Positions 9,135 to 24,746 of a DNA stretch of 29,233 bases are shown here, piece by piece. The notes under the pieces were generated by a model. It made no database searches. It was not told the origin of the DNA and saw only the letters and a list, made by a program, of their open reading frames with translations. Both the position numbers and the translations under genes were made by a program. Each line of letters begins with the position of its first letter. Positions within the stretch are counted from its first letter, which is position 1. The DNA is from a virus, in IMG/VR virus record IMGVR_UViG_3300020172_001176, positions 1-29,233 of that record. One strand, 5' to 3'.

Positions 9135-9374
9135 ATGGACGACCGCCCCCTGTCTAAAAAGCAGATAAAAGAACAGCTTAAGCTCTTAGACCCCCGTAAC
9201 CAGCTCACCATGATCGAAGACGACGGAGAGTTTATCCGCGTCCAGTTTGTCCGCAAGAACGGCGAGGTCGTGATTGGCATGTACCAGCGTTGGGGGTGGG
9301 CCTTGCCGCCGAAGAAGGTAGGGGAAAAGCTCAACAAGCTGATCACTGCTCCCCCGAAACGGATGTACCGCTGA
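9135..9374 (+). CDS. Isolated plus-strand small protein within the late region
   Basis: 79 residues: MDDRPLSKKQIKEQLKLLDPRNQLTMIEDDGEFIRVQFVRKNGEVVIGMYQRWGWALPPKKVGEKL. It appears to be a helix followed by a compact beta unit with basic C-terminus. GGAGATC precedes the ATG at good spacing, like the early plus-strand genes, and a candidate promoter lies just upstream. Its last 32 bases overlap the 3' end of the giant minus-strand gene tail to tail. It is the only plus-strand gene in the first 21 kb. I do not recognise the family. Separate transcription from the late genes suggests an early-expressed accessory (moron-like) role, which is inference. Confidence 0.68.
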   Translation: MDDRPLSKKQIKEQLKLLDPRNQLTMIEDDGEFIRVQFVRKNGEVVIGMYQRWGWALPPKKVGEKLNKLITAPPKRMYR

Positions 9375-12300
9375 CCATTTGATCGCCAAGACCGAGCGCG
9401 GCGAGAACCGGGAGAAACTCTTTCTTCCGATAGGCTGCTTGCAAGCCCTTCAATCCCTTGTCGCGCATGATCGAGAGCATGTTCAGGAAATCGGGGCGAA
9501 CCCGGTTCCCCTTCGCATTCTGCGAGGCATACATGTCATGGAGATCACCGGCGGCGCGGCGCAGTTCGACGTTGTCGAGCCTGCCAAATTCTTCCGGCGT
9601 TAGCTTGTTAAGAGATGACGTGAGCCTCTTTGCGACAGCTCGCGAACCTTCCGGCTGGGCAAATTCAGACGAAAGATCAACGTAGGATTTTTTACCGGCG
9701 ATGTTTGTGACAGGGATAGCCTCGGTGGCGCCCGCCAAGTTTTTCATCCAAGTGCGATCTGCGTCGGTGAAAGGTTCCATCTTGCCCCAAGGGAACGCAC
9801 TGAGGGTGCGCCCTGTGTCGGCTATGGCAAGAGGCTCAGTGTTCAACGCCCCAAGCATGCCGAAGCGCGCTTGCTGATCACCGGCATCAACTTTCTTGGG
9901 GAAAGTGAATGCTGTTCCTGCGCCTTTAGGATCTCCGATCAGCGCGTGATGAGGCGTTCCATGTTGGGCAGTCATGGCACCGCGAAGAGTGCTTGCCACC
10001 TCAAGAGCGCGCTCGACCGCCGGGTCTACGATCTTTTGCCCGCTCTTGTTAAGGGTCACCGGCGCTTCAACGGAAGCGGTATAGCCGCGACCAACTTCCA
10101 ACGGAGGACGGTACTCCGTCGCATGCGCGAGGCTCGTCCCCATGCCGCCCACAGGGCCTTCCATGCCGGGGCGCCATACTTCAGTGGAGGGGACTGTGGA
10201 GACGGGGCTCAGGCCAAGGTTCTTATGGAGGATGTCCATGCCAGTTGGATCTTGGAAGACGTTCGACACGCGGCTGGAGAAGTTAGCGCGCGACCCGGCA
10301 GGGGCGTCAATTAGGTCTTCAGCCACTCCGGTGCCGCGACCGGGGATGCCGCTCGTTGTGACGTGGGCGAATGTTTTATCCTGCTCAGGCGTATAGCCGG
10401 GGAACAGAGATCTGGACTCCCGCTGGCGGCGCTCGCGCAGATTGCCGAGGGTGTCCGCCGTCTTTTCAAGATTGGCGACATCAGATGCGGTCATCTCAGG
10501 AAGCTGGCGCGGGAAATTGAAGGGCTGCATTTTTTCCAATTGTTCGCCACGGCCCATTTGCTGAATTATGTTGGCATATCGAGGATCGTTTCGCAGAAGC
10601 GACGAGAAGTCGGGCGTTCCACGGATCAAGTCAGGCGTCAGCAAACCGCGCTGCAAGAACTCGCGGGGGTGCATGCCAGCCTTGGTTGCGCCTTCCATCA
10701 GCGGCATGGCCACGGACCAGATGGTCTCCTGAGCTTCGCTGGGCAGCATTCTCGCCATCTGTCCGCCTTCGCGCTGGCGGGCGCTCAGAGCAAGGTAGCC
10801 GGGCGAATATCCGGGGTTGCCAGCCGCCAATTGCTGGGCGGTCGGGCTGACGCGGAGGAGGCCTTGGTCAATGTTCGTGGCGTTCGAGATCCACGCATCA
10901 TTGGTGACGCGATAAACGTCATCCGCAAGGTTGCGGAAGAAGCTGTTCACCTTTGGGCCGGAGAGCGTGATAGCGCGCGGATCAGGCGTTGTGAGGGCGC
11001 GGATCGAATTATTGACCCATGCGTCAAGGATGCTGTCCTCGCCTTTTCCGCCTTGAACACTCGCGCCCATAACGCGCTTGATGGCCGCAGGATCTGTTGG
11101 GCGCCCGGCGGCCTCCCAGTTTTTCCAAATGTTGAGCGTATTGAGAAGGTTGCTCTCGACGCTGGTTTGAGGAGACGTGGCGGCGAGGAGGGCGGAGAAG
11201 CGGGGCGCGTCTTGAGGCCCGAAGACATCCATGAGCGCCTGAGTGCTGCCGCGATACCATCCCTGCTTGGGCGCCCCGGCCTTGGCGAGAGAGGACATTT
11301 GTTCAGCCTGCGGGATGACCTCAAGCAGGCGCATCATCGGTTCGATCTGCCGGGGATTGGCAATGACACCCTTCAGTTCTTCAGGCAGCATAAATCGCGA
11401 GGCCTGAGCGAACTCGGGGCTCTGGGCGCGCAGGGCGGTCAGCTTGTCCATTTCCTCGGGGTTTAGGGCGCGCTCTTGCATGGCCCTGATCTCAAGCCCC
11501 GTCTGGCCACGGATGGGCGCTTCCTTCGGGGCAAAGGCGCCGGTCATACCGGAAACGACATCGCTGGGGGGAGCTTCGCCGCGAGCGATGTCAAGGGCGC
11601 GCACAGACGCGGGGAGCTGCGGGAAAGCAGCTTCGCCAGACCCGGCAGTGGCAGACCTGACGATGTCGAAAGCTTTTTCAAGAGAAGGATCGACAGCCTT
11701 GGGGGCAACGCGGGAAAGCTCCCCGCGCGCAGCCCCAGCAAGGGCGCCACCAATTTTAGGAGCCCTTGCTGCTTCAGCTTCATCAGGGGCTGTAAGACCA
11801 GACGCTACAGCCAGCGGGGCAAACACGTTGCGGGCTGCGCTTGCAGGCATGCCGAAGGCGCCCATCGCAACTTGCGTGGGGCTCCCTGCGGCGATGCCTT
11901 CGGCGGTGTCGATAGCGGTCCCCAACATGGCGGCTGGGGGGAAAGCAGCACCGGCAGCATACAGCGGAGCAGTCTTCAACCCATATCCGAATTGCGCAAG
12001 GGAGGAGAGCGGGTTGGCGACGGGATATGGGGCGTTGCCAAGCACTCTTTCACGACCGAATGCGTCGATGGCTATGTTGGCGCGGGGCTCTGAAGGCCGA
12101 TGCGTCATCTCACGAGCCCATTGGGGCTGCGCGTCAATGCGAGCGTTACTCGCCTCAAAGGCCTGAATATCTCTTGCAAGTCTCGCTTTTTCCTCCGCAG
12201 CGCGCATCCGCTCTGCGTTATCAGTGGCGATTGGCGCCTGCTCGCGCTCAGGCCCAGCCGCAGGGAAGGCGACGTTTCCCATCGGATCGACATAGCTGCC

Positions 12301-15300
12301 GTCAAGCCCGTTGAAATGGCGGCGCGCAGCATGCAGAGCGCGGGAAACAATGTCGTCGTGGCTCATGTTGCCGTCTCCGTGGATTTCGCCTCCGTGGGCG
12401 TAGCGGTTCAAGATCTCGGTGTCTGCCGGGTCATAGACGACATAATTCTGGACTTTGCCCTTGCCCGCCATGTCTCTGTAGGTATTCCCGACGACACCCT
12501 GATCACGCAGGAACTGGTTTGCCTCGGGTTGCCATTCGTTCGGGTTCACGGAGCCATAGTCGCGGTGAATGCCGCCGTAGAGGTTGAGGCCGCCGATGTC
12601 TTCCGGGGCGGAGATCTTGCGAAGCTCCTCGATGCGCTCAGGCGTGAAAGGGCGGCGCGCGTAGTCAACTCCCCGCTCCAGCATTTGAGCGCGGGCCTGA
12701 TTAGCTTTCTCAGCCATCTCAACAGCCTTGGGGCGCAGGGCGTCTTGAATGAATGGGCTCTGCTCGCCGAAGGGTTTCTGCCATTGCAGGAACTGCTCAG
12801 GCTTCGCCTTTATCTCGACCTCATACAGGCCGCCGGGGGTCTTGAGCTTCGGGACAACCTTACTCTCAAACCATTCCCGAGCCTCGGGTTGATAGTTACT
12901 TGATTTGAGTATTTCTCGAAGGGCAAGGCTATCAGACGGGTCACCCACCATGTCCTCAAGGACTTGCATCTTGTCATAGATGCGCTTCGCATCTTGCGGA
13001 GGCAATTCCTTAGCTTGCCGCTCAAACTGCATGTAAAGATCCGACACTGGGACGCCGCCGATCTTAGGTTCTGGCGAACCTTTGAGGGCCATGTTCCGAT
13101 ATGTGCGCGCGAAGTTAGGCGTGTCGGTGATGTAGACGCCACGCCCGAAAAGCTCGCCAGCCCCCGAGCCCATCTTGGATGGGTCGAACTGTTTGAACTG
13201 TCTGCCGGAGCCGTGCCACCCGCGAATGGCGTCGAGGGCATGCTTCACGATCTGGCCGCCCTCGCCATAACCCTCGACCTCGCCACCCGCCTCACGGGTC
13301 TCGCGATGGAAGCGGGTCGCCCCGATGTTGAAGCCGGGGTATTTTTTCGCGAAGTCGGGGACATTGCGCCCAAGCTCGCCTTGAGGCTTCGGCGCCCAGA
13401 AGTAGGTCGAGCCACCTGTGATGTCGCCAGCGTCATACGCCCTCCGAAGGGCTGCGGCGCCAGCGTCATAGGCAGGCATGCCGGGCTTGAACTTCATAGG
13501 ATAATTTGCCTTGCTCTCATCGGACCAAGGCTCGAACTGGTTCTCAGCAAGCAAGATGTCGCGGATCGACTTGCCGTAGCGTCCACCAGCGATTGCACGG
13601 TTCAAGATCACGTTGGCAATGGCGTGAGCCTCCTCGGGGCTCTTGCCGCTCGCCTCGGCAGCGATGGTCTTCGCGATCAGGTCTTTCTCCTGATCGGTGA
13701 TCTCAGGATAGTTGACGGCGCGGTTCGTGACCTTGGGGAGTGAAGGCAGGCCATTCGGGCCGATGACGGCGGTGCCGGGCTTGAGCCCATAGACGGATGC
13801 CGGGTCGGTTGTGTGTTCAGCGCCACCGATGCGCTGAGTGCTGCCAAATTGACCGCTGAGAGCGGCTTCTGCGGCGGGCGTCCCTGCCCTGATCACCTCA
13901 TGGTGAAGGTGCTGGCCGCCAATGGTGCCGATGGGCTGGCCAGCCCGGATCTCGGTCCCCGGCGCCACGCTCACGTCTCCGCTGTGGACGGCGTAGCGGC
14001 GGATCGTGCCGTCAGGCGCCGCGATGTCCACCATGTTGCCGTAGCCGCTGTGGTTGCCAGCATAGACGACCTTGCCCGGCGTCGTGGAGTAGACGGGGGT
14101 GCCGTTGTTGGCTTGCCAGTCCGTCCCGGCGTGGAGGCGCATGTAATCGCCCAGCGTCCCGCGAGCGGCGCCATAGTGGCTTGCAGGGCCACCGACGAAG
14201 GTGCCGTTGACCGGAAAGATCTGGGGCGCAGCGACGGCGCTGTTGATGGCCGCAACCGCAGGGGCGCTGGGCGCAGCCTGCGGGGGCGCGTAGGAGAGCG
14301 CCTGAGCAGGCGGTGCTGGCGCTTCATTGCGGGCGAGAGCGACGGCGCGGTCGGCAAGAGCCTGCGGCGCGGGGGGCTTGAGAGCCGCCTCGGGGAGCGT
14401 GTACATATCAACATACTGGCCGGTTTCAACCCTTGGGCTTGCCCACGTCCTGCCGCCATCATCTTCGTTGGCGGCCTGCCCGTAGCCGGGTTGCCCGGTC
14501 GGCAGCTCGACCAAGTGGCCCGGTGTTTCATTTTCGAAATTGTGCGGCATGGCCAAGAAGGGCGAAGTGTAGGGGATGCTGATCGGCGCAGGAGCTGGAG
14601 CAGGGGCGGCGATTGCGCGCGTCTCACGTTGAGGCTCAGGGGCGGGAGCTGGTGCAGGCGCGGCTTCGGGCGCAGGGCGACGAAGCGGAAGGGGCGCGGC
14701 AACATCGGGCGCCTTGTCGAGCGCCATGCGGGCCTTGGCGGCGCGGAAGAAGTCGGCGGCGCTCTCGGGGTTGCCCCACTGCACCTCGCCATCCTTGATG
14801 ACCTTGTCGCCGGTGGACTGATAGTCGTCGCCGGAGAACAAGCTCCGCAGGCTGTCGAGGAAGCCGCCCTCATCGAAGTGCTGGCGAAGTAAATGCAGGG
14901 CGGCATCGACGTGGCCACCATCGGCATAGTTGAACTTTAGCCCGGCGTTCGCTCTTGTGCTGTGGTCACGCGGACTGTGGCTCAATCCAGCCGATATAGC
15001 GCCCTTTACTTCTTGACGAGAAGGCTGGCGCTCCCGATCCCTGCGCGTCAAAGGAACCATTGGCTGCTCTTCGCGGGAAGACGGGAGCCTGAACTGTGGC
15101 GCCTCGGGATTACGCCCAGTCGTCAACGGCACAGATCCAGACAGGTCATAAGTTATGGGGCCGCCCGTTCCTGACCAATTGGCTCCCGCACTGAGCGATG
15201 GAGATGGCGCATTGCGCTCGCCAAACTGTTTGGCGATCATAATAGCGTTCTGAGCATCACCGCGACCGCCGATCTCATTGCTGCGGCGGTAGGATGTGCT

Positions 15301-15624
15301 GAAGCCATCGGGTCCGCCAGCGGTGAGCATTGCGTTGTAGCCGGGCGTCATGCCGTCCTGCCCCGACATATCCAACATGCCGCGCAGGCGCCCCGCGTTC
15401 ATCATTGCACCAAGCTGTGAGACACCGCCGGACTGGTCAAATTCAATCGGGTTGGACTCGCCCTGCTGCAACGTGCGCGGGTTGGTCAATATGACTGGAT
15501 CTTGGCCCTGTTGCTGGGTTATCTGGCCAGATTGCAACCTCACGTCAGCGGGACGATAGGCAGGCTGATCAGGGTAAGCCTCTGACAGCTTCGCCATGAG
15601 GGCTTGGTAGGCAGCGTCATCCAT
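9343..15624 (-). CDS. 2093-residue polyvalent protein: M23 peptidase, SleB-type hydrolase, ADP-ribosyltransferase-like module
   Basis: Residues 1-230 carry beta-hairpin-like, low-similarity text; 290-465 are Ala/Pro linker. About 468-590 is an M23/LytM endopeptidase with HxxxD at H498 and D502 and an HxH pair at H572/H574. About 638-775 resembles SleB-type cell-wall hydrolases (IAAEASGKSPEEAHAIANVILNR, candidate catalytic E657, later QFEPW and GSTYFW). About 800-1065 resembles phage ADP-ribosyltransferase modules (WHGSGRQFKQFDPS at 803, FGRGVYITDTPNFARTYR). About 1455-1690 is a helical domain (WYRGSTQALMDVFG, LLAATSPQTSVE, SGPKVNSFFRNL) seen in phage polyvalent proteins; the rest is unassigned. 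Probably packaged or ejected with DNA, cutting wall and modifying host targets. Start follows GGAG and lies 4 bases past the portal stop. No frameshift is seen. Confidence 0.8.
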   Translation of the reverse strand: MDDAAYQALMAKLSEAYPDQPAYRPADVRLQSGQITQQQGQDPVILTNPRTLQQGESNPIEFDQSGGVSQLGAMMNAGRLRGMLDMSGQDGMTPGYNAMLTAGGPDGFSTSYRRSNEIGGRGDAQNAIMIAKQFGERNAPSPSLSAGANWSGTGGPITYDLSGSVPLTTGRNPEAPQFRLPSSREEQPMVPLTRRDRERQPSRQEVKGAISAGLSHSPRDHSTRANAGLKFNYADGGHVDAALHLLRQHFDEGGFLDSLRSLFSGDDYQSTGDKVIKDGEVQWGNPESAADFFRAAKARMALDKAPDVAAPLPLRRPAPEAAPAPAPAPEPQRETRAIAAPAPAPAPISIPYTSPFLAMPHNFENETPGHLVELPTGQPGYGQAANEDDGGRTWASPRVETGQYVDMYTLPEAALKPPAPQALADRAVALARNEAPAPPAQALSYAPPQAAPSAPAVAAINSAVAAPQIFPVNGTFVGGPASHYGAARGTLGDYMRLHAGTDWQANNGTPVYSTTPGKVVYAGNHSGYGNMVDIAAPDGTIRRYAVHSGDVSVAPGTEIRAGQPIGTIGGQHLHHEVIRAGTPAAEAALSGQFGSTQRIGGAEHTTDPASVYGLKPGTAVIGPNGLPSLPKVTNRAVNYPEITDQEKDLIAKTIAAEASGKSPEEAHAIANVILNRAIAGGRYGKSIRDILLAENQFEPWSDESKANYPMKFKPGMPAYDAGAAALRRAYDAGDITGGSTYFWAPKPQGELGRNVPDFAKKYPGFNIGATRFHRETREAGGEVEGYGEGGQIVKHALDAIRGWHGSGRQFKQFDPSKMGSGAGELFGRGVYITDTPNFARTYRNMALKGSPEPKIGGVPVSDLYMQFERQAKELPPQDAKRIYDKMQVLEDMVGDPSDSLALREILKSSNYQPEAREWFESKVVPKLKTPGGLYEVEIKAKPEQFLQWQKPFGEQSPFIQDALRPKAVEMAEKANQARAQMLERGVDYARRPFTPERIEELRKISAPEDIGGLNLYGGIHRDYGSVNPNEWQPEANQFLRDQGVVGNTYRDMAGKGKVQNYVVYDPADTEILNRYAHGGEIHGDGNMSHDDIVSRALHAARRHFNGLDGSYVDPMGNVAFPAAGPEREQAPIATDNAERMRAAEEKARLARDIQAFEASNARIDAQPQWAREMTHRPSEPRANIAIDAFGRERVLGNAPYPVANPLSSLAQFGYGLKTAPLYAAGAAFPPAAMLGTAIDTAEGIAAGSPTQVAMGAFGMPASAARNVFAPLAVASGLTAPDEAEAARAPKIGGALAGAARGELSRVAPKAVDPSLEKAFDIVRSATAGSGEAAFPQLPASVRALDIARGEAPPSDVVSGMTGAFAPKEAPIRGQTGLEIRAMQERALNPEEMDKLTALRAQSPEFAQASRFMLPEELKGVIANPRQIEPMMRLLEVIPQAEQMSSLAKAGAPKQGWYRGSTQALMDVFGPQDAPRFSALLAATSPQTSVESNLLNTLNIWKNWEAAGRPTDPAAIKRVMGASVQGGKGEDSILDAWVNNSIRALTTPDPRAITLSGPKVNSFFRNLADDVYRVTNDAWISNATNIDQGLLRVSPTAQQLAAGNPGYSPGYLALSARQREGGQMARMLPSEAQETIWSVAMPLMEGATKAGMHPREFLQRGLLTPDLIRGTPDFSSLLRNDPRYANIIQQMGRGEQLEKMQPFNFPRQLPEMTASDVANLEKTADTLGNLRERRQRESRSLFPGYTPEQDKTFAHVTTSGIPGRGTGVAEDLIDAPAGSRANFSSRVSNVFQDPTGMDILHKNLGLSPVSTVPSTEVWRPGMEGPVGGMGTSLAHATEYRPPLEVGRGYTASVEAPVTLNKSGQKIVDPAVERALEVASTLRGAMTAQHGTPHHALIGDPKGAGTAFTFPKKVDAGDQQARFGMLGALNTEPLAIADTGRTLSAFPWGKMEPFTDADRTWMKNLAGATEAIPVTNIAGKKSYVDLSSEFAQPEGSRAVAKRLTSSLNKLTPEEFGRLDNVELRRAAGDLHDMYASQNAKGNRVRPDFLNMLSIMRDKGLKGLQAAYRKKEFLPVLAALGLGDQMVSGTSVSGEQ

Positions 15625-21268: not shown

Positions 21269-21321
21269 TGTCTCGGATTTCCGGGCGTTATCGCCTCCAC
21301 CGAAATTATTTTTGAAAAAAG

Positions 21322-21330
21322 TTATCCACA
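21322..21330 (+). promoter_or_regulatory. DnaA box, copy 1
   Basis: TTATCCACA is an exact match to the strongest DnaA-box sequence. It sits 14 bases upstream of the copy-1 -35 and just downstream of an AT-rich run (GAAATTATTTTTGAAAAAA). Identical boxes occur at 22321 and 23037 in the same position relative to promoters. Confidence 0.7.
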
Positions 21331-21344
21331 GGAGCTTGGAGGGC

Positions 21345-21373
21345 TTTACAGGCGAAATATCTTCGCCTATAAG
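21345..21373 (+). promoter_or_regulatory. Early promoter 1 with palindromic spacer
   Basis: TTTACA (21345-21350) and TATAAG (21368-21373) are spaced 17 bp, a good sigma70 pair. The spacer 21351-21367 is GGCGAA ATATC TTCGCC, a perfect inverted repeat with 6-bp arms that fills it exactly, so a repressor bound here would occlude polymerase. Drives the genes from 21410. Confidence 0.72.
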
Positions 21374-21409
21374 AGGGACATGGTTGCTTCTAAACAGATG
21401 GAGATTGAC

Positions 21410-21628
21410 ATGACCAACACCTACACCAGCCGCAAGATCAACACCGGCATCTACATCGTGAGCTTCGCCAACGGCGCTCAGGTTCGCGTCGTCCGTCACG
21501 AAAACGGCCTGTGGAACACCTTCCTCGTTGGCCGTGAAGAGAACGACAGGGATAGCTGGATGCAAACCTACTGCACCAAGGGTGATGCCATCGCCGAGTT
21601 GGTCACCTGCGCCCACGAGCTGATCTGA
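21410..21628 (+). CDS. Small early protein, unknown function
   Basis: 72 residues: MTNTYTSRKINTGIYIVSFANGAQVRVVRHENGLWNTFLVGREENDRDSWMQTYCTKGDAIAELV. It looks like a beta-sheet unit followed by a C-terminal helix and is not recognised. The preferred ATG at 21410 has GGAG at suitable distance. A second ATG twelve bases upstream is in frame and would add MEID, as at four other genes here. It is the first gene after early promoter 1 and is followed by a UUCG hairpin. Confidence 0.65.
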   Translation: MTNTYTSRKINTGIYIVSFANGAQVRVVRHENGLWNTFLVGREENDRDSWMQTYCTKGDAIAELVTCAHELI

Positions 21629-21630
21629 CC

Positions 21631-21646
21631 GGGGGCTTCGGCCCCC
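21631..21646 (+). other. UUCG hairpin, copy 1
   Basis: GGGGGC, loop TTCG, GCCCCC, two bases after the stop of the 21410 gene. No T-run follows, so it more likely marks mRNA processing, stability or partial termination than full termination. The same 16 bases recur at 22713 and 23460. Confidence 0.62.
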
Positions 21647-21676
21647 ACCCACCCTTCGAATTAAATGGAGATGAAC

Positions 21677-21994
21677 ATGACCAACGCTTTCGCAAACCAA
21701 GTCGGCTACTCTGACATCACCCCCTTCGAGGTCGTGCGCCACGTCAGCGGCAAGACCGTAGACATCCGCGAGATGGACGCCGTGCGCTCGAACCCCGAGG
21801 TGGACATGGGCTTCGCCCCCGGCGGCTTCGTCGGTCACTTCGCCAACCAGAGCGCGCAGGAATGGACCATCACCTCGAACCCCGAGAACCGGGTTGTCCG
21901 CATCCGCCTTGGCAAGCGCGGCTGGGCCGACAAGTGGGGCAACCGCTACGACATGTGCGGCAAACCGCGCCGCTTCTACGATTACAATTTCTGA
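21677..21994 (+). CDS. Early protein with conserved mobile-element-like pattern
   Basis: 105 residues. TPFEVVRHVSGKTVDIREMDAVRSNPEVDMGFAPGGFVGHFANQSAQEWTITSNPENRVVRIRLGKRGWADKWGNRYDMCGKPRRFYDYNF has the style of a small family I have seen in phages and plasmids, with a C-terminal 'RIRLGKRGW...KPRxFYDYNF' block and no known activity. It appears mixed beta with a basic C-terminus. GGAG before ATG 21677 favours that start over the in-frame ATG at 21665. A nucleic-acid role is suggested by basic surface residues but not shown. Confidence 0.68.
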   Translation: MTNAFANQVGYSDITPFEVVRHVSGKTVDIREMDAVRSNPEVDMGFAPGGFVGHFANQSAQEWTITSNPENRVVRIRLGKRGWADKWGNRYDMCGKPRRFYDYNF

Positions 21995-22002
21995 TCAGCG
22001 CG

Positions 22003-22025
22003 GGTCGGCAATTCAATTGCCGACC
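22003..22025 (+). other. Perfect inverted repeat between early genes
   Basis: GGTCGGCAATT and AATTGCCGACC are 11-bp perfect arms around one central base, so as RNA it forms a 9-bp stem with a 5-base loop. TTT follows, making a weak terminator possible; a protein-binding palindrome is the alternative. It lies between the genes at 21677 and 22055. Confidence 0.6.
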
Positions 22026-22054
22026 TTTGCCGACCCAACTCAATGGAGATTGAT

Positions 22055-22318
22055 ATGCAACGCCAAGTCCCCACCAAAGACACCACCATCCTCGGCATCA
22101 TGCGCAGCGGACCCTTCGTGAAGGGCTTCAGCGAGGCACGGGCGGGCAACCCGATCCGGTACGACGCTTACATCAACAACGCGAACTCGCAGTGGAATTA
22201 TGAGCGCGGGCGCCTATTCGGGCTGATCTTCAGCGGCCCCCTGAAGGTGGGCAGGGCGATCAATCGCGGCGCCGCCATCCAGTTCTCGCTGGCGATCCAC
22301 CAGAAGATCATCCTCTGA
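22055..22318 (+). CDS. Small basic early protein, unknown function
   Basis: 87 residues: MQRQVPTKDTTILGIMRSGPFVKGFSEARAGNPIRYDAYINNANSQWNYERGRLFGLIF, with a C-terminal beta stretch (AINRGAAIQFSLAIHQKIIL). The Asn/Arg/Tyr-rich centre (RAGNPIRYD, WNYERGRLFG) is typical of small nucleic-acid-associated proteins, but no family is recognised. ATG 22055 has GGAG at the right distance; the in-frame ATG at 22043 is the alternative. Its stop lies two bases before DnaA box 2. Confidence 0.62.
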   Translation: MQRQVPTKDTTILGIMRSGPFVKGFSEARAGNPIRYDAYINNANSQWNYERGRLFGLIFSGPLKVGRAINRGAAIQFSLAIHQKIIL

Positions 22319-22320
22319 AG

Positions 22321-22329
22321 TTATCCACA
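22321..22329 (+). promoter_or_regulatory. DnaA box, copy 2
   Basis: TTATCCACA, exact, two bases after the previous stop codon and 30 bases before the copy-2 -35. A hairpin lies between box and promoter. Confidence 0.7.
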
Positions 22330-22333
22330 GGGT

Positions 22334-22358
22334 GGGGTGCGAATTATTTTCGCACCCC
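22334..22358 (+). other. Stem-loop between DnaA box and promoter, copy 2
   Basis: GGGGTGCGAA and TTCGCACCCC form a perfect 10-bp stem around TTATT. It may end transcription from upstream genes before early promoter 2, or extrude as DNA. A weaker hairpin with the same AT-rich core (GAATTATTTTC) is at 23047-23073. Confidence 0.6.
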
Positions 22359-22359
22359 C

Positions 22360-22388
22360 TTTACAGGTGAATTTTCTTCGCCTATTCT
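22360..22388 (+). promoter_or_regulatory. Early promoter 2 with near-palindromic spacer
   Basis: TTTACA (22360-22365) and TATTCT (22383-22388), spacing 17. The spacer GGTGAATTTTCTTCGCC differs from copy 1 at one base of the left arm (GGTGAA in place of GGCGAA). A CGGTC/GACCG stem-loop (22396-22411) follows in the leader. Confidence 0.68.
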
Positions 22389-22429
22389 GTTTCTACGGTC
22401 ACTGATGACCGCAGCCTCTGGAGCCCGCC

Positions 22430-22708
22430 ATGTGCATCGCCCCCTACTACAACACCCCCGACATGACCCAGCCCCGCCTGCTTGGCCAGTTCGACACCGT
22501 GTTCGGCGCCCACTTCGAGTTCAGCGACCGCCCCGAGGGCGACCGTCAGGGCATGTGGGCTGGCTATCCCCACCGCATCTTCACGGTCGATGGTGACCGC
22601 GCCGCCCTCGTCCTCAAGACCGTCGCCTACGTCATCATCGACGAGAACGATGACGGCTCGCCGGTGTTCGAGAAGTGGGAAATCAAGCGCCACCGCGCCT
22701 ACGCCTGA
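22430..22708 (+). CDS. Early protein, unknown function
   Basis: 92 residues: MCIAPYYNTPDMTQPRLLGQFDTVFGAHFEFSDRPEGDRQGMWAGYPHRIFTVDGDRAALVLKTVAYVIIDENDDGSPVFEKWEIKRHRAYA. It appears beta-rich (strands at DTVFGAHFEFS, RIFTVD, AALVLKTVAYVIIDE, FEKWEIK), acidic in the centre with a basic tail. A GGAG site lies eight bases before the ATG, and unlike its neighbours it lacks the upstream in-frame ATG. First gene of the copy-2 unit, followed by a UUCG hairpin. Not recognised. Confidence 0.65.
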   Translation: MCIAPYYNTPDMTQPRLLGQFDTVFGAHFEFSDRPEGDRQGMWAGYPHRIFTVDGDRAALVLKTVAYVIIDENDDGSPVFEKWEIKRHRAYA

Positions 22709-22712
22709 AACC

Positions 22713-22728
22713 GGGGGCTTCGGCCCCC
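22713..22728 (+). other. UUCG hairpin, copy 2
   Basis: The same GGGGGC-TTCG-GCCCCC element as at 21631, here four bases after the stop of the 22430 gene. It probably acts on the transcript in the same way. No T-run. Confidence 0.62.
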
Positions 22729-22756
22729 TCCCAACCCAACCCTAATGGAGATTAAC

Positions 22757-23035
22757 ATGACCTTCACCTTCTTCCCCCTGACAGAATACGCCCCCGCCCT
22801 CACCTTCACCGCCACCGGCGAGGGTCTCTGGGACGCCATGTGCGAGGCGATTGCCGATCACGTCCTTGGCGTTGACCCTTGGTCCGAGACACCCGCCCGC
22901 GACATCATCGAGATCGTCGAGATGCAGACTGCTGACGAGAGCGAGTACGTCGAGGCGGTCTATGTGCAGGGCAAGCTCATGGGCTCACTTGGCGCCCCCT
23001 TCTGGCTCGACCCCAGCCAATATGTGAAGATCTAA
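22757..23035 (+). CDS. Acidic early protein, unknown function
   Basis: 92 residues: MTFTFFPLTEYAPALTFTATGEGLWDAMCEAIADHVLGVDPWSETPARDIIEIVEMQTADESEYVEAVYVQGKLMGSLG, ending LDPSQYVKI. Strongly acidic with a helix (LWDAMCEAIADHVLG) followed by strands. Acidic small early phage proteins sometimes mimic DNA or bind host enzymes, but nothing specific is visible here. ATG 22757 follows GGAG; ATG 22745 in frame would add MEIN. Its stop is one base before DnaA box 3. Confidence 0.63.
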   Translation: MTFTFFPLTEYAPALTFTATGEGLWDAMCEAIADHVLGVDPWSETPARDIIEIVEMQTADESEYVEAVYVQGKLMGSLGAPFWLDPSQYVKI

Positions 23036-23036
23036 G

Positions 23037-23045
23037 TTATCCACA
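23037..23045 (+). promoter_or_regulatory. DnaA box, copy 3
   Basis: TTATCCACA, exact, one base after the preceding stop codon and 30 bases before the copy-3 -35, the same spacing as copy 2. Confidence 0.7.
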
Positions 23046-23046
23046 G

Positions 23047-23073
23047 GGGGTGGCGAATTATTTTCTCCACCCC
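23047..23073 (+). other. Stem-loop between DnaA box and promoter, copy 3
   Basis: GGGGTGG pairs with CCACCCC (7 bp) around a 13-base AT-rich loop containing GAATTATTTTC. It is a looser version of the copy-2 hairpin at the same place. Confidence 0.52.
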
Positions 23074-23075
23074 AA

Positions 23076-23103
23076 TTGACAGGCGAAATAGTTTCGCTGT
23101 AAG
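23076..23103 (+). promoter_or_regulatory. Early promoter 3 with palindromic spacer
   Basis: TTGACA (23076-23081), a perfect -35, with TGTAAG (23098-23103) at 16-bp spacing. The overlapped spacer GGCGAAATAGTTTCGC has arms GCGAAA/TTTCGC, with the same dyad centre as copy 1. A CGGTC/GACCG stem-loop (23113-23130) follows in the leader, as in copy 2. Confidence 0.68.
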
Positions 23104-23149
23104 GTTCAATCACGGTCGCAATGAAGACCGCAACTTAATGGAGATCGAT

Positions 23150-23452
23150 ATGACCGCTTCCAACACCGTCGCCGCCGTCGAAGTGTTCCTCGCCGCCAAG
23201 GCTCAGTTCGAGGATGCCGAGGCCGTTCTCAAGGCCGCCAAGGCTGACATCGTCACCATCACTGGTGGCTACGGCTTCATCGAAGGCGAGACCGCCGATG
23301 TCGATGTCGCCTTGCAGTCCCGCAAGAGCATCAACGAAAAGGCCTTGCTGGCGCTGGGCCTGACGCAGGCGCAGATCGACGGCTGCAAGATCGAAGGCGA
23401 AGCCTTCCGTGTCTTCCGCGTGAAGGCCAAGAAGGTCAAGAAGGCGGCCTGA
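23150..23452 (+). CDS. Ala/Lys-rich helical early protein
   Basis: 100 residues: a long N-terminal helix (NTVAAVEVFLAAKAQFEDAEAVLKAAKADIVTITG), a short beta part (GFIEGETADVDVALQSRKSINEKALLALGLTQAQIDGCKIEGEAFRVFRVK), and a basic tail KAKKVKKAA. The tail suggests nucleic-acid contact. The middle, with 'LxLTQAQIDxxK', resembles small phage proteins I have seen without assigned role. ATG 23150 follows GGAG; ATG 23138 is in frame 12 bases upstream. First gene of the copy-3 unit; a UUCG hairpin follows. Confidence 0.65.
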   Translation: MTASNTVAAVEVFLAAKAQFEDAEAVLKAAKADIVTITGGYGFIEGETADVDVALQSRKSINEKALLALGLTQAQIDGCKIEGEAFRVFRVKAKKVKKAA

Positions 23453-23459
23453 AAGAACC

Positions 23460-23475
23460 GGGGGCTTCGGCCCCC
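23460..23475 (+). other. UUCG hairpin, copy 3
   Basis: The same 16-base GGGGGC-TTCG-GCCCCC element, seven bases after the stop of the 23150 gene and before the next ribosome site. Confidence 0.62.
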
Positions 23476-23500
23476 ACCAACCCCCTGAAGGAGAATTGAT

Positions 23501-24334: not shown

Positions 24335-24528
24335 TGTACCTACCCGAAAACGCCAACGGGCTTGAGGTGGTTGTCCACGAGGCAAATCCCACGGCGACGG
24401 TCCACATGTTCATCAATGGCCAATACACGCACTGGGTTGAGTTCGACCTGCCACAGATGACCAAGATGATTGAAACACTACAACGCAAGGTCAAGGAAAT
24501 GGAACAGAACAGGGACGCCCCAAAATGA
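24334..24528 (+). CDS. Small protein, unknown function
   Basis: 64 residues: MYLPENANGLEVVVHEANPTATVHMFINGQYTHWVEFDLPQMTKMIETLQRKVKEMEQNRDAPK. Beta N-terminal half and a coiled-coil-like C-terminal helix. The ATG at 24334 overlaps the upstream stop (TGATG). It overlaps the next gene as ATGA. Three genes in a row with overlapping stops and starts form one co-translated unit ending in a DNA-binding protein, suggesting related functions. Confidence 0.63.
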   Translation: MYLPENANGLEVVVHEANPTATVHMFINGQYTHWVEFDLPQMTKMIETLQRKVKEMEQNRDAPK

Positions 24529-24746
24529 CCCCGGACAAACTCAAAGACATCATGCACAAGCTGGACTTCAGCACGGCTGACGTGGCGACCGTCATGGGCG
24601 TCACGCGCCGCACCGTCCAGCTCTGGCAGGCAGGGACCAGTCCCGTGCCGCAGTCCGCCATCATCCTTCTGGAGGGGATCTTTGAGGGCCTGCTCCCGAT
24701 GGAATGGGTCGAGGACAAGATCGTCCTCGCACTGCGGATCGCCTGA
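24525..24746 (+). CDS. Small helix-turn-helix DNA-binding protein
   Basis: 73 residues. Residues about 15-40 (FSTADVATVMGVTRRTVQLWQAGTSPVPQ) form an evident helix-turn-helix: first helix 'TADVATVMGV', recognition helix 'TRRTVQLWQAG'. It resembles Cro/XRE-like or MerR-type minimal regulators in length. As the only evident small DNA-binding regulator of the plus-strand block, it is a natural candidate to bind the GGCGAA-N5-TTCGCC palindromes at 21351, 22366 and 23082, but this is inference. The ATG overlaps the upstream stop as ATGA. The stop is followed by a GCCTGAC/GTCAGGC inverted repeat. Confidence 0.76.
   Translation: MTPDKLKDIMHKLDFSTADVATVMGVTRRTVQLWQAGTSPVPQSAIILLEGIFEGLLPMEWVEDKIVLALRIA

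Follow-up and report, generated by a model that had tools for sequence, protein, structure and literature searches.

A repeated phage promoter module predicted to be controlled through DnaA boxes

DnaA both activates and represses promoters (PMC8203912), and in lambda the host protein affects phage transcription by contacting the beta subunit of RNA polymerase, through which it stimulates transcription at ori-lambda (PMC3985674, PMC8203912). CtrA-regulated promoters, associated with "lytic deferment," have been described in alphaproteobacterial phages; the same study looked at DnaA, GcrA, and SciP sites across the complete genomes that it analyzed and found them without positional bias (PMC9437464). 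Here we describe a locus in a 29,233-base virus record from IMG/VR (IMGVR_UViG_3300020172_001176; this whole stretch is called the window below) in which a DnaA box, a sigma70-type promoter with a palindromic spacer, and a leader stem recur three times in the same order. We found no description of such a phage control unit in the literature, subscription journals being largely outside the coverage. Our best explanation, to which we assign a probability of roughly 0.6, is a phage early-promoter module controlled through DnaA boxes that host DnaA, and probably a DnaA-like protein of the phage as well, would read.

The 9-mer TTATCCACA fits the R-type DnaA box consensus TTWTNCACA, and its exact copies in the window number three, all on the plus strand. 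They and an adjoining tract are as follows:

21322..21330, plus strand, DnaA box 1, TTATCCACA, exact match, at the lead promoter
22321..22329, plus strand, DnaA box 2, TTATCCACA, exact match
23037..23045, plus strand, DnaA box 3, TTATCCACA, exact match
21302..21321, plus strand, A/T-rich tract GAAATTATTTTTGAAAAAAG directly 5' of the lead box, supported by column-by-column conservation in 20 lead-class promoters

All three boxes, to which DnaA is predicted to bind, are embedded in one identical 14-mer, AAGTTATCCACAGG. Dinucleotide shuffling predicts a mean of 0.03 exact copies, and none of 100 shuffles reached the observed three, which bears out the initial annotation in its claim that three exact boxes in the same order exceed chance. 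No additional TTWTNCACA box, weaker ones included, was found in the whole window. As that annotation had also noted, boxes 2 and 3 lie immediately behind genes, beginning 2 bases past a TGA stop (22316-22318) and 1 base past a TAA stop (23033-23035), respectively. The distance from the end of the box to the −35 element is 14 bases in copy 1 and exactly 30 in copies 2 and 3.

A −35 element, a palindromic spacer of 16 to 17 bp (base pairs), and a −10 element had been described after each box, and we located all three sets, along with the inverted repeats and leader stems that accompany them:

21345..21373, plus strand, promoter 1, TTTACA-17-TATAAG, with the spacer GGCGAAATATCTTCGCC (GGCGAA-ATATC-TTCGCC), called from the sequence, its CGAA-N5-TTCG near-invariant in relatives
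22360..22388, plus strand, promoter 2, TTTACA-17-TATTCT, with the spacer GGTGAATTTTCTTCGCC, 9 of 12 consensus matches
23076..23103, plus strand, promoter 3, TTGACA-16-TGTAAG, with the spacer GGCGAAATAGTTTCGC, called likewise and kept in relatives
22334..22359, plus strand, inverted repeat GGGGTGCGAATTATTTTCGCACCCCC upstream of promoter 2, with a second CGAA-N5-TTCG site
23048..23073, plus strand, inverted repeat GGGTGGCGAATTATTTTCTCCACCCC upstream of promoter 3, with an imperfect CGAA-N5-TTCG core
21381..21396, plus strand, degenerate leader stem TGGTT..AAACA of copy 1, aligned to the fully paired TGGTT..AACCA of relatives
22396..22411, plus strand, leader stem-loop CGGTC-ACTGAT-GACCG of copy 2, pairing kept through substitutions in relatives
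23113..23130, plus strand, leader stem-loop CGGTC-GCAATGAA-GACCG of copy 3

The spacers of all three sigma70-like promoters are palindromes of the GCGAA-N5-TTCGC type. Only copy 2 passed a strict consensus promoter scan; because copies 1 and 3 did not, conservation is the main basis for the promoter calls. A hairpin with the core GAATTATTTTC precedes promoters 2 and 3 (22334-22359 and 23048-23073); in copy 2 it shares the CGAA-N5-TTCG palindrome with the promoter spacer, and the version in copy 3 is imperfect. We considered these upstream hairpins as terminators and rejected the idea, as no T-run follows them and their CGAA-N5-TTCG core is that of the spacer palindrome. They are found only behind a gene and may have a role at 3' ends. 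The CGGTC/GACCG leader stems of copies 2 and 3 were as first reported; the degenerate stem of copy 1 had been overlooked. A search of Rfam returned no credible RNA family.

To assess conservation, we collected relatives of the window in two ways. A DNA pattern scan of viral contigs recovered the same layout, and a box-independent set was then fetched by the terminase protein and the 104-residue protein encoded behind promoter 3, yielding 21 records with 56 distinct upstream regions. An exact box is present in 34 of these 56 regions (permuted 9-mers: mean, 0.02; maximum, 3), where TTATCCACA is the commonest 9-mer of all. The lead promoter is boxed in 18 of the 21 records and the downstream promoters in about half of cases, with zero to four exact boxes per phage. 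The group extends to members whose copy-3 protein is only 35 to 38% identical to that of the window. This strong conservation, seen in relatives collected both with and without the box as bait, supports the repeated control unit that had been proposed. Loss of boxes from retained promoters, the outcome that the initial annotation named as speaking against it, was found in part: lead boxes mostly stay, while an exact box is missing from about half of the downstream promoters and from two relatives (L054 and L068).

What is found at these promoters is a conserved promoter-proximal box with a sigma70-type promoter, as in DnaA-regulated promoters, at gaps of 14 to 35 bp. Of 40 boxed promoters, 20 have a gap to the −35 element of 14 to 15 bp, 14 have one of 25 bp, and five have one of 30 to 35 bp, copies 2 and 3 of the window among them; the remaining row (45) is an artifact of a contig edge. 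The 30-base spacing first described as part of the layout thus holds in the window and belongs to a minority class among relatives. The 14- to 15-bp and 25-bp classes differ by about one helical turn, which suggested strict helical phasing of the box; we rejected this, since the 30-bp copies of the window contradict it. In one relative (L065) the box is reversed and lies 6 bp before the −35 element. Across the alignment the box stays constant, and it is the sequence separating it from the −35 element that varies.

The remaining elements are conserved in different ways. In near relatives, internal copies carry an inverted repeat between box and promoter whose core is usually CGAA-N5-TTCG and usually lies 28 or 30 bp upstream of the spacer palindrome; the sequence of the hairpin itself is not conserved, and the lead copies of relatives lack it, which corrects the initial description. 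In a complete relative, G002 (IMGVR_UViG_3300027917_000003), promoters with CGAA-N5-TTCG are confined to this cluster, save one imperfect match. G002 is a 61,613-base circle after removal of a 99-base end repeat; its record classes it as linear, and the 99-base terminal repeat, together with G001, another record whose sequence runs unchanged through the junction, indicates a complete circular map. The leader stem keeps its position while its letters change (CGGTC/GACCG, TGGTT/AACCA, CGGCT/AGCCG, and CCGC/GCGG, with a 14-pair stem in L055). These substitutions were judged by eye, and the argument for the stem rests on them because the folding z-score of single leaders has a mean of only −1.5. 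Retention of the letters of the spacer palindrome is as expected for a protein-binding site, and retention of pairing without the letters in the leader is as expected for an RNA structure near the 5' end. In L055 (4800-5000) and the same region of L058, two divergent cassettes seem to flank one DnaA box and A-tract, and one box may there serve two promoters.

Other collections were searched as well. A more distant group by large terminase subunit (TerL; 45 to 49% identity; L039-L053 except L048) has no boxes; its early region is often uncovered, and we did not use it as evidence. Annotated phage and plasmid collections held no DNA-level match to the cassette region, and bacterial and archaeal genomes gave one chance pattern match only, in Rhizobium laguerreae, with no palindrome or leader.

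The initial annotation assumed host DnaA as the reader of the boxes; relatives also encode a candidate reader of their own. G002:32819-33334 encodes a 171-residue protein with a match to Bac_DnaA_C (E = 2.5e-16; 59.9 bits versus a cutoff of 31.5), the only domain that Pfam shows; no AAA+ domain was detected. Six records of the group, including this complete genome, carry the DnaA-domain-IV gene. In these six proteins the residues R399, D433, H434, and T436 (E. coli numbering) are invariant and T435 is Ser in one, all five being residues that contact the box in the structure 1j1v; the residue matching E. coli R407 is also conserved in the alignment with the E. coli domain. The predicted structure has a pLDDT (predicted local distance difference test score) of ~90 over the domain, and its best PDB match, at a root-mean-square deviation of 1.2 Å, is 1j1v, the crystal structure of DnaA domain IV in complex with its box. 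The family also has a conserved N-terminal helix, LHxHYxxVRxR. In another, unrelated-looking lineage (L103/L119), the DnaA-like gene lies 1.6 kilobases (kb) downstream of a single boxed promoter on the same strand; that promoter carries a CGGTC..GACCG leader stem, and the L103 protein has DHTS at the contact positions. Viral contigs commonly encode proteins with a stand-alone DnaA domain IV, in at least 400 places in IMG/VR (L154-L233). Several matches to "Bacteriophage sp." entries (MT83xxxx) in a tblastn search were set aside because they look like bacterial dnaA/oriC fragments, one with a dense box cluster.

From this layout we infer every binding event, its sign, and its timing as follows. 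One module would have been copied before several small-gene blocks; in order, each copy comprises a DnaA box, an inverted repeat (in internal copies), a sigma70-type promoter whose spacer looks like an operator palindrome, a leader stem-loop, and the gene. Right after infection, host RNA polymerase would transcribe from these promoters, with host DnaA on the box adjusting their output, a step made plausible by the activator and repressor roles of DnaA and its stimulation of ori-lambda transcription. At the lead promoter the effect would most likely be upward, the sign being a guess. Later, the phage DnaA-domain-IV protein, in which neither an AAA+ nor an RNA polymerase-contact domain was detected, would take the same boxes and alter or end this input. 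A dimeric regulator, perhaps the 73-residue helix-turn-helix protein encoded at 24525, would repress through the CGAA-N5-TTCG of the spacer, and the short messages would be protected by the leader stem-loop, which lies close to their predicted 5' end. More tentatively, we propose that such a phage protein, a mimic of DnaA lacking its ATPase part, regulates transcription from DnaA-box promoters in competition with the host protein, switching early genes and perhaps also host replication, and that this system is widespread.

Several observations weigh against the proposed module. The DnaA-like gene does not lie in the 29-kb window contig, which stops short of the corresponding region of G002; we infer that the window phage carries the gene in its own genome. 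L054 (also G005) has the gene and no exact box in 59,952 bases. L068, one of the members at 35 to 38% identity in the copy-3 protein, likewise lacks an exact box in its 22.6-kb fragment; its TerL is 72% identical to that of the window. About half of the downstream promoters have no box, and the 30-bp copies of the window differ from the 25-bp class by roughly half a helical turn, an offset that disfavors a strict contact geometry. Boxes are absent from Rhizobium and Bradyrhizobium phages that encode a stand-alone DnaA domain IV, and at other viral loci of this kind the enrichment is modest (15 versus 3.7, with 5 of 200 permuted 9-mers attaining the higher count). We accordingly dropped the idea that every phage with such a domain is strongly enriched in boxes.

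The alternative that survives best, which we nevertheless regard as unlikely, is that host DnaA alone reads the boxes, so that the phage senses the level or state of DnaA (cell cycle or replication competence), and that the phage DnaA-like protein has another job, such as phage replication or interference with host oriC. The boxes fit the universal DnaA consensus, the stand-alone domain occurs in box-less phages and in the relative without an exact box, and there is the CtrA precedent in alphaproteobacterial phages (PMC9437464). GANTC depletion is consistent with a CcrM-bearing alphaproteobacterial host: it is 17-fold in the window (8 sites versus ~139 expected) and 11-fold in G002 (25 versus 272), and other sites of a comparable form occur at close to the expected number or are only mildly depleted. 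This avoidance fits a CcrM-bearing host or restriction avoidance. We provisionally assign an alphaproteobacterial-type host on the basis of TerL relatives, composition, and depletion of this CcrM site; since the search of bacterial and archaeal genomes gave a single chance match, no prophage of the group was seen and the assignment stays indirect. Against a host protein acting alone, binding to these boxes would also be expected of a domain that the same phage genomes encode with its contact residues conserved, and in L103 the DnaA-like gene sits in the operon behind the boxed promoter.

We think it improbable that the boxes are part of a phage replication origin at which DnaA or the DnaA-like protein initiates and the promoters give transcriptional activation as at ori-lambda. 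In the lead copy a conserved A/T-rich tract does adjoin the DnaA box, the gene content of the phage includes both a prim-pol/helicase-like protein and the DnaA-domain-IV protein, and in the replication region of G002 we saw no iterons, so that no competing origin is evident. However, the boxes are single, 0.7 to 1 kb apart, with no weaker TTWTNCACA site near them and nothing like an oriC cluster, their number varies from 0 to 4 among relatives, and every copy is tied to a promoter; the suggestion in the initial annotation that they might mark an origin is not favored for these reasons. The conserved 20-bp A/T tract lies beside the lead box only and is retained even in box-less L054 and L068. 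The skew minimum of G002 (usual convention, detrended) is at ~30 to 35 kb and the cassettes are at 14 to 16 kb; this is weak evidence, and the skew follows gene strand.

It is very unlikely that the 14-mer is part of some other conserved sequence, such as a terminator, a packaging signal, or another protein's site: its AAG and GG flanks are conserved too, and the internal hairpins follow gene ends and could protect or end transcripts, but the 9-mer is the most conserved part, holding where flanks vary (CACAAG in L064, TC before the box in L070), the same 9-mer precedes promoters of unrelated phages, and the genomes encode a DnaA-box-binding domain. Equally hard to credit are passive decoys that slow host replication without effect on phage promoters, as several high-affinity-type boxes on a multiplying phage would presumably titrate host DnaA, but titration needs neither narrow placement upstream of promoters nor retention of a single box at the lead promoter.

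To examine whether boxed promoters occur beyond this group, we searched IMG/VR for the extended box AAAAAGTTATCCACAG followed by an outward TTKACA within 10 to 38 bases. There were 81 such stretches, 61 of them without the palindrome of the group, and 31 with an inward TTKACA at the same spacing; the reversed extended box gave 61 outward and 20 inward. After near-duplicates and the group itself were dropped, 22 of 71 outward cases and none of the 37 inward ones had a good −10 element (5 or 6 of 6 matches) at 16 to 18 bp (Fisher P = 2.6e-5), with about 2 predicted by shuffles. IMG/VR may include some plasmid fragments; 7 of the 27 records sampled showed a terminase family. A second phage family (L143, L144, L151, L093, L096, and L136) combines an extended DnaA box with a CATG-type inverted repeat around the −35 element and a leader stem of GGGGT..ACCCC or GGCAC..GTGCC, which in L143 precedes a homologue of the window copy-3 gene.

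Each promoter is followed by a small gene with GGAG ahead of its start. The genes of this region, presumably early to judge from their position and size, are as follows:

21410..21628, plus strand, 72-residue open reading frame, first gene after promoter 1, weak match to phrog_2287 of unknown function
21665..21994, plus strand, 109-residue open reading frame of the cluster, phrogs of unknown function
22043..22318, plus strand, 91-residue open reading frame, stop 2 bases before box 2
22430..22708, plus strand, 92-residue open reading frame after promoter 2, phrog_23785 of unknown function
22745..23035, plus strand, 96-residue open reading frame, stop 1 base before box 3
23138..23452, plus strand, 104-residue open reading frame after promoter 3, with a homologue in L143 (34% identity) likewise behind a boxed promoter
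24525..24746, plus strand, 73-residue helix-turn-helix (Cro/XRE-like) protein, phrog_14076 transcriptional regulator (E = 6e-7)

Small helix-turn-helix reading frames resembling the 73-residue protein also occur in L065 and L068, and as a guess we name this protein as the candidate binder of CGAA-N5-TTCG. Three near-identical intercistronic hairpins, GGGGGC-TTCG-GCCCCC, without a T-run (21628-21654, 22710-22736, and 23457-23483) are probably message ends or stabilizers. From just beyond the lead copy, the genes for the small and large terminase subunits run leftward and the small genes rightward; the leftward structural block includes a single 2,093-residue open reading frame (9343-15624, minus strand). 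The large terminase of L068 (2277-4883, minus strand) contains an intein (Hint/intein-splicing domains) after residue 518, and its flanks align continuously with the window terminase.

If the proposed module is real, phage early genes would be wired to the replication-initiation signal of the host, with a phage-made DnaA DNA-binding domain in the circuit. The published phage survey found no clustering of DnaA sites, and uncultured phages and the scale of the promoter merit a renewed search. For stand-alone DnaA domain IV genes, we found no tested function, and with the present layout they have a concrete candidate target. Were the boxes functional, the module would also serve as a compact DnaA-responsive promoter.

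The nearest concept among known systems is that of the CtrA phages, which likewise concentrate sites for a host cell-cycle transcription factor in phage promoter regions, in Alphaproteobacteria. The regulator differs: neither the window nor the complete relative has a CtrA site (TTAA-N7-TTAA). Virulent Phi29 also places sites for a host master regulator, Spo0A, at its own promoters (PMC9437464), but it uses another regulator and involves no phage-made DNA-binding domain of that regulator. Ori-lambda and pR resemble this locus in having DnaA boxes near phage promoters (PMC3985674, PMC8203912); there the boxes are weak and near one origin region, whereas here consensus boxes lie upstream of repeated promoters and are joined by a phage DnaA domain IV, the upstream rather than downstream position being the main geometric difference. 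Phage Bac_DnaA_C proteins such as EVB88_078 of RHph_N28_2 similarly have domain IV without AAA+ and are annotated as replication-initiator-like, but phages of that type have no boxes, whereas the family with the LHxHYxxVRxR helix occurs together with boxed promoters. Bacterial DnaA-regulated promoters (nrdAB, dnaA, and the Caulobacter regulon) share consensus boxes in the promoter region and the possibility of activation or repression (PMC8203912); in contrast, the units described here are phage-borne, with one box each, and are copies of a cassette with an operator palindrome and a leader stem-loop. By this comparison, we class the cassette with DnaA-box-controlled promoters, as a phage-borne form that possibly has a DnaA-type reader of its own.

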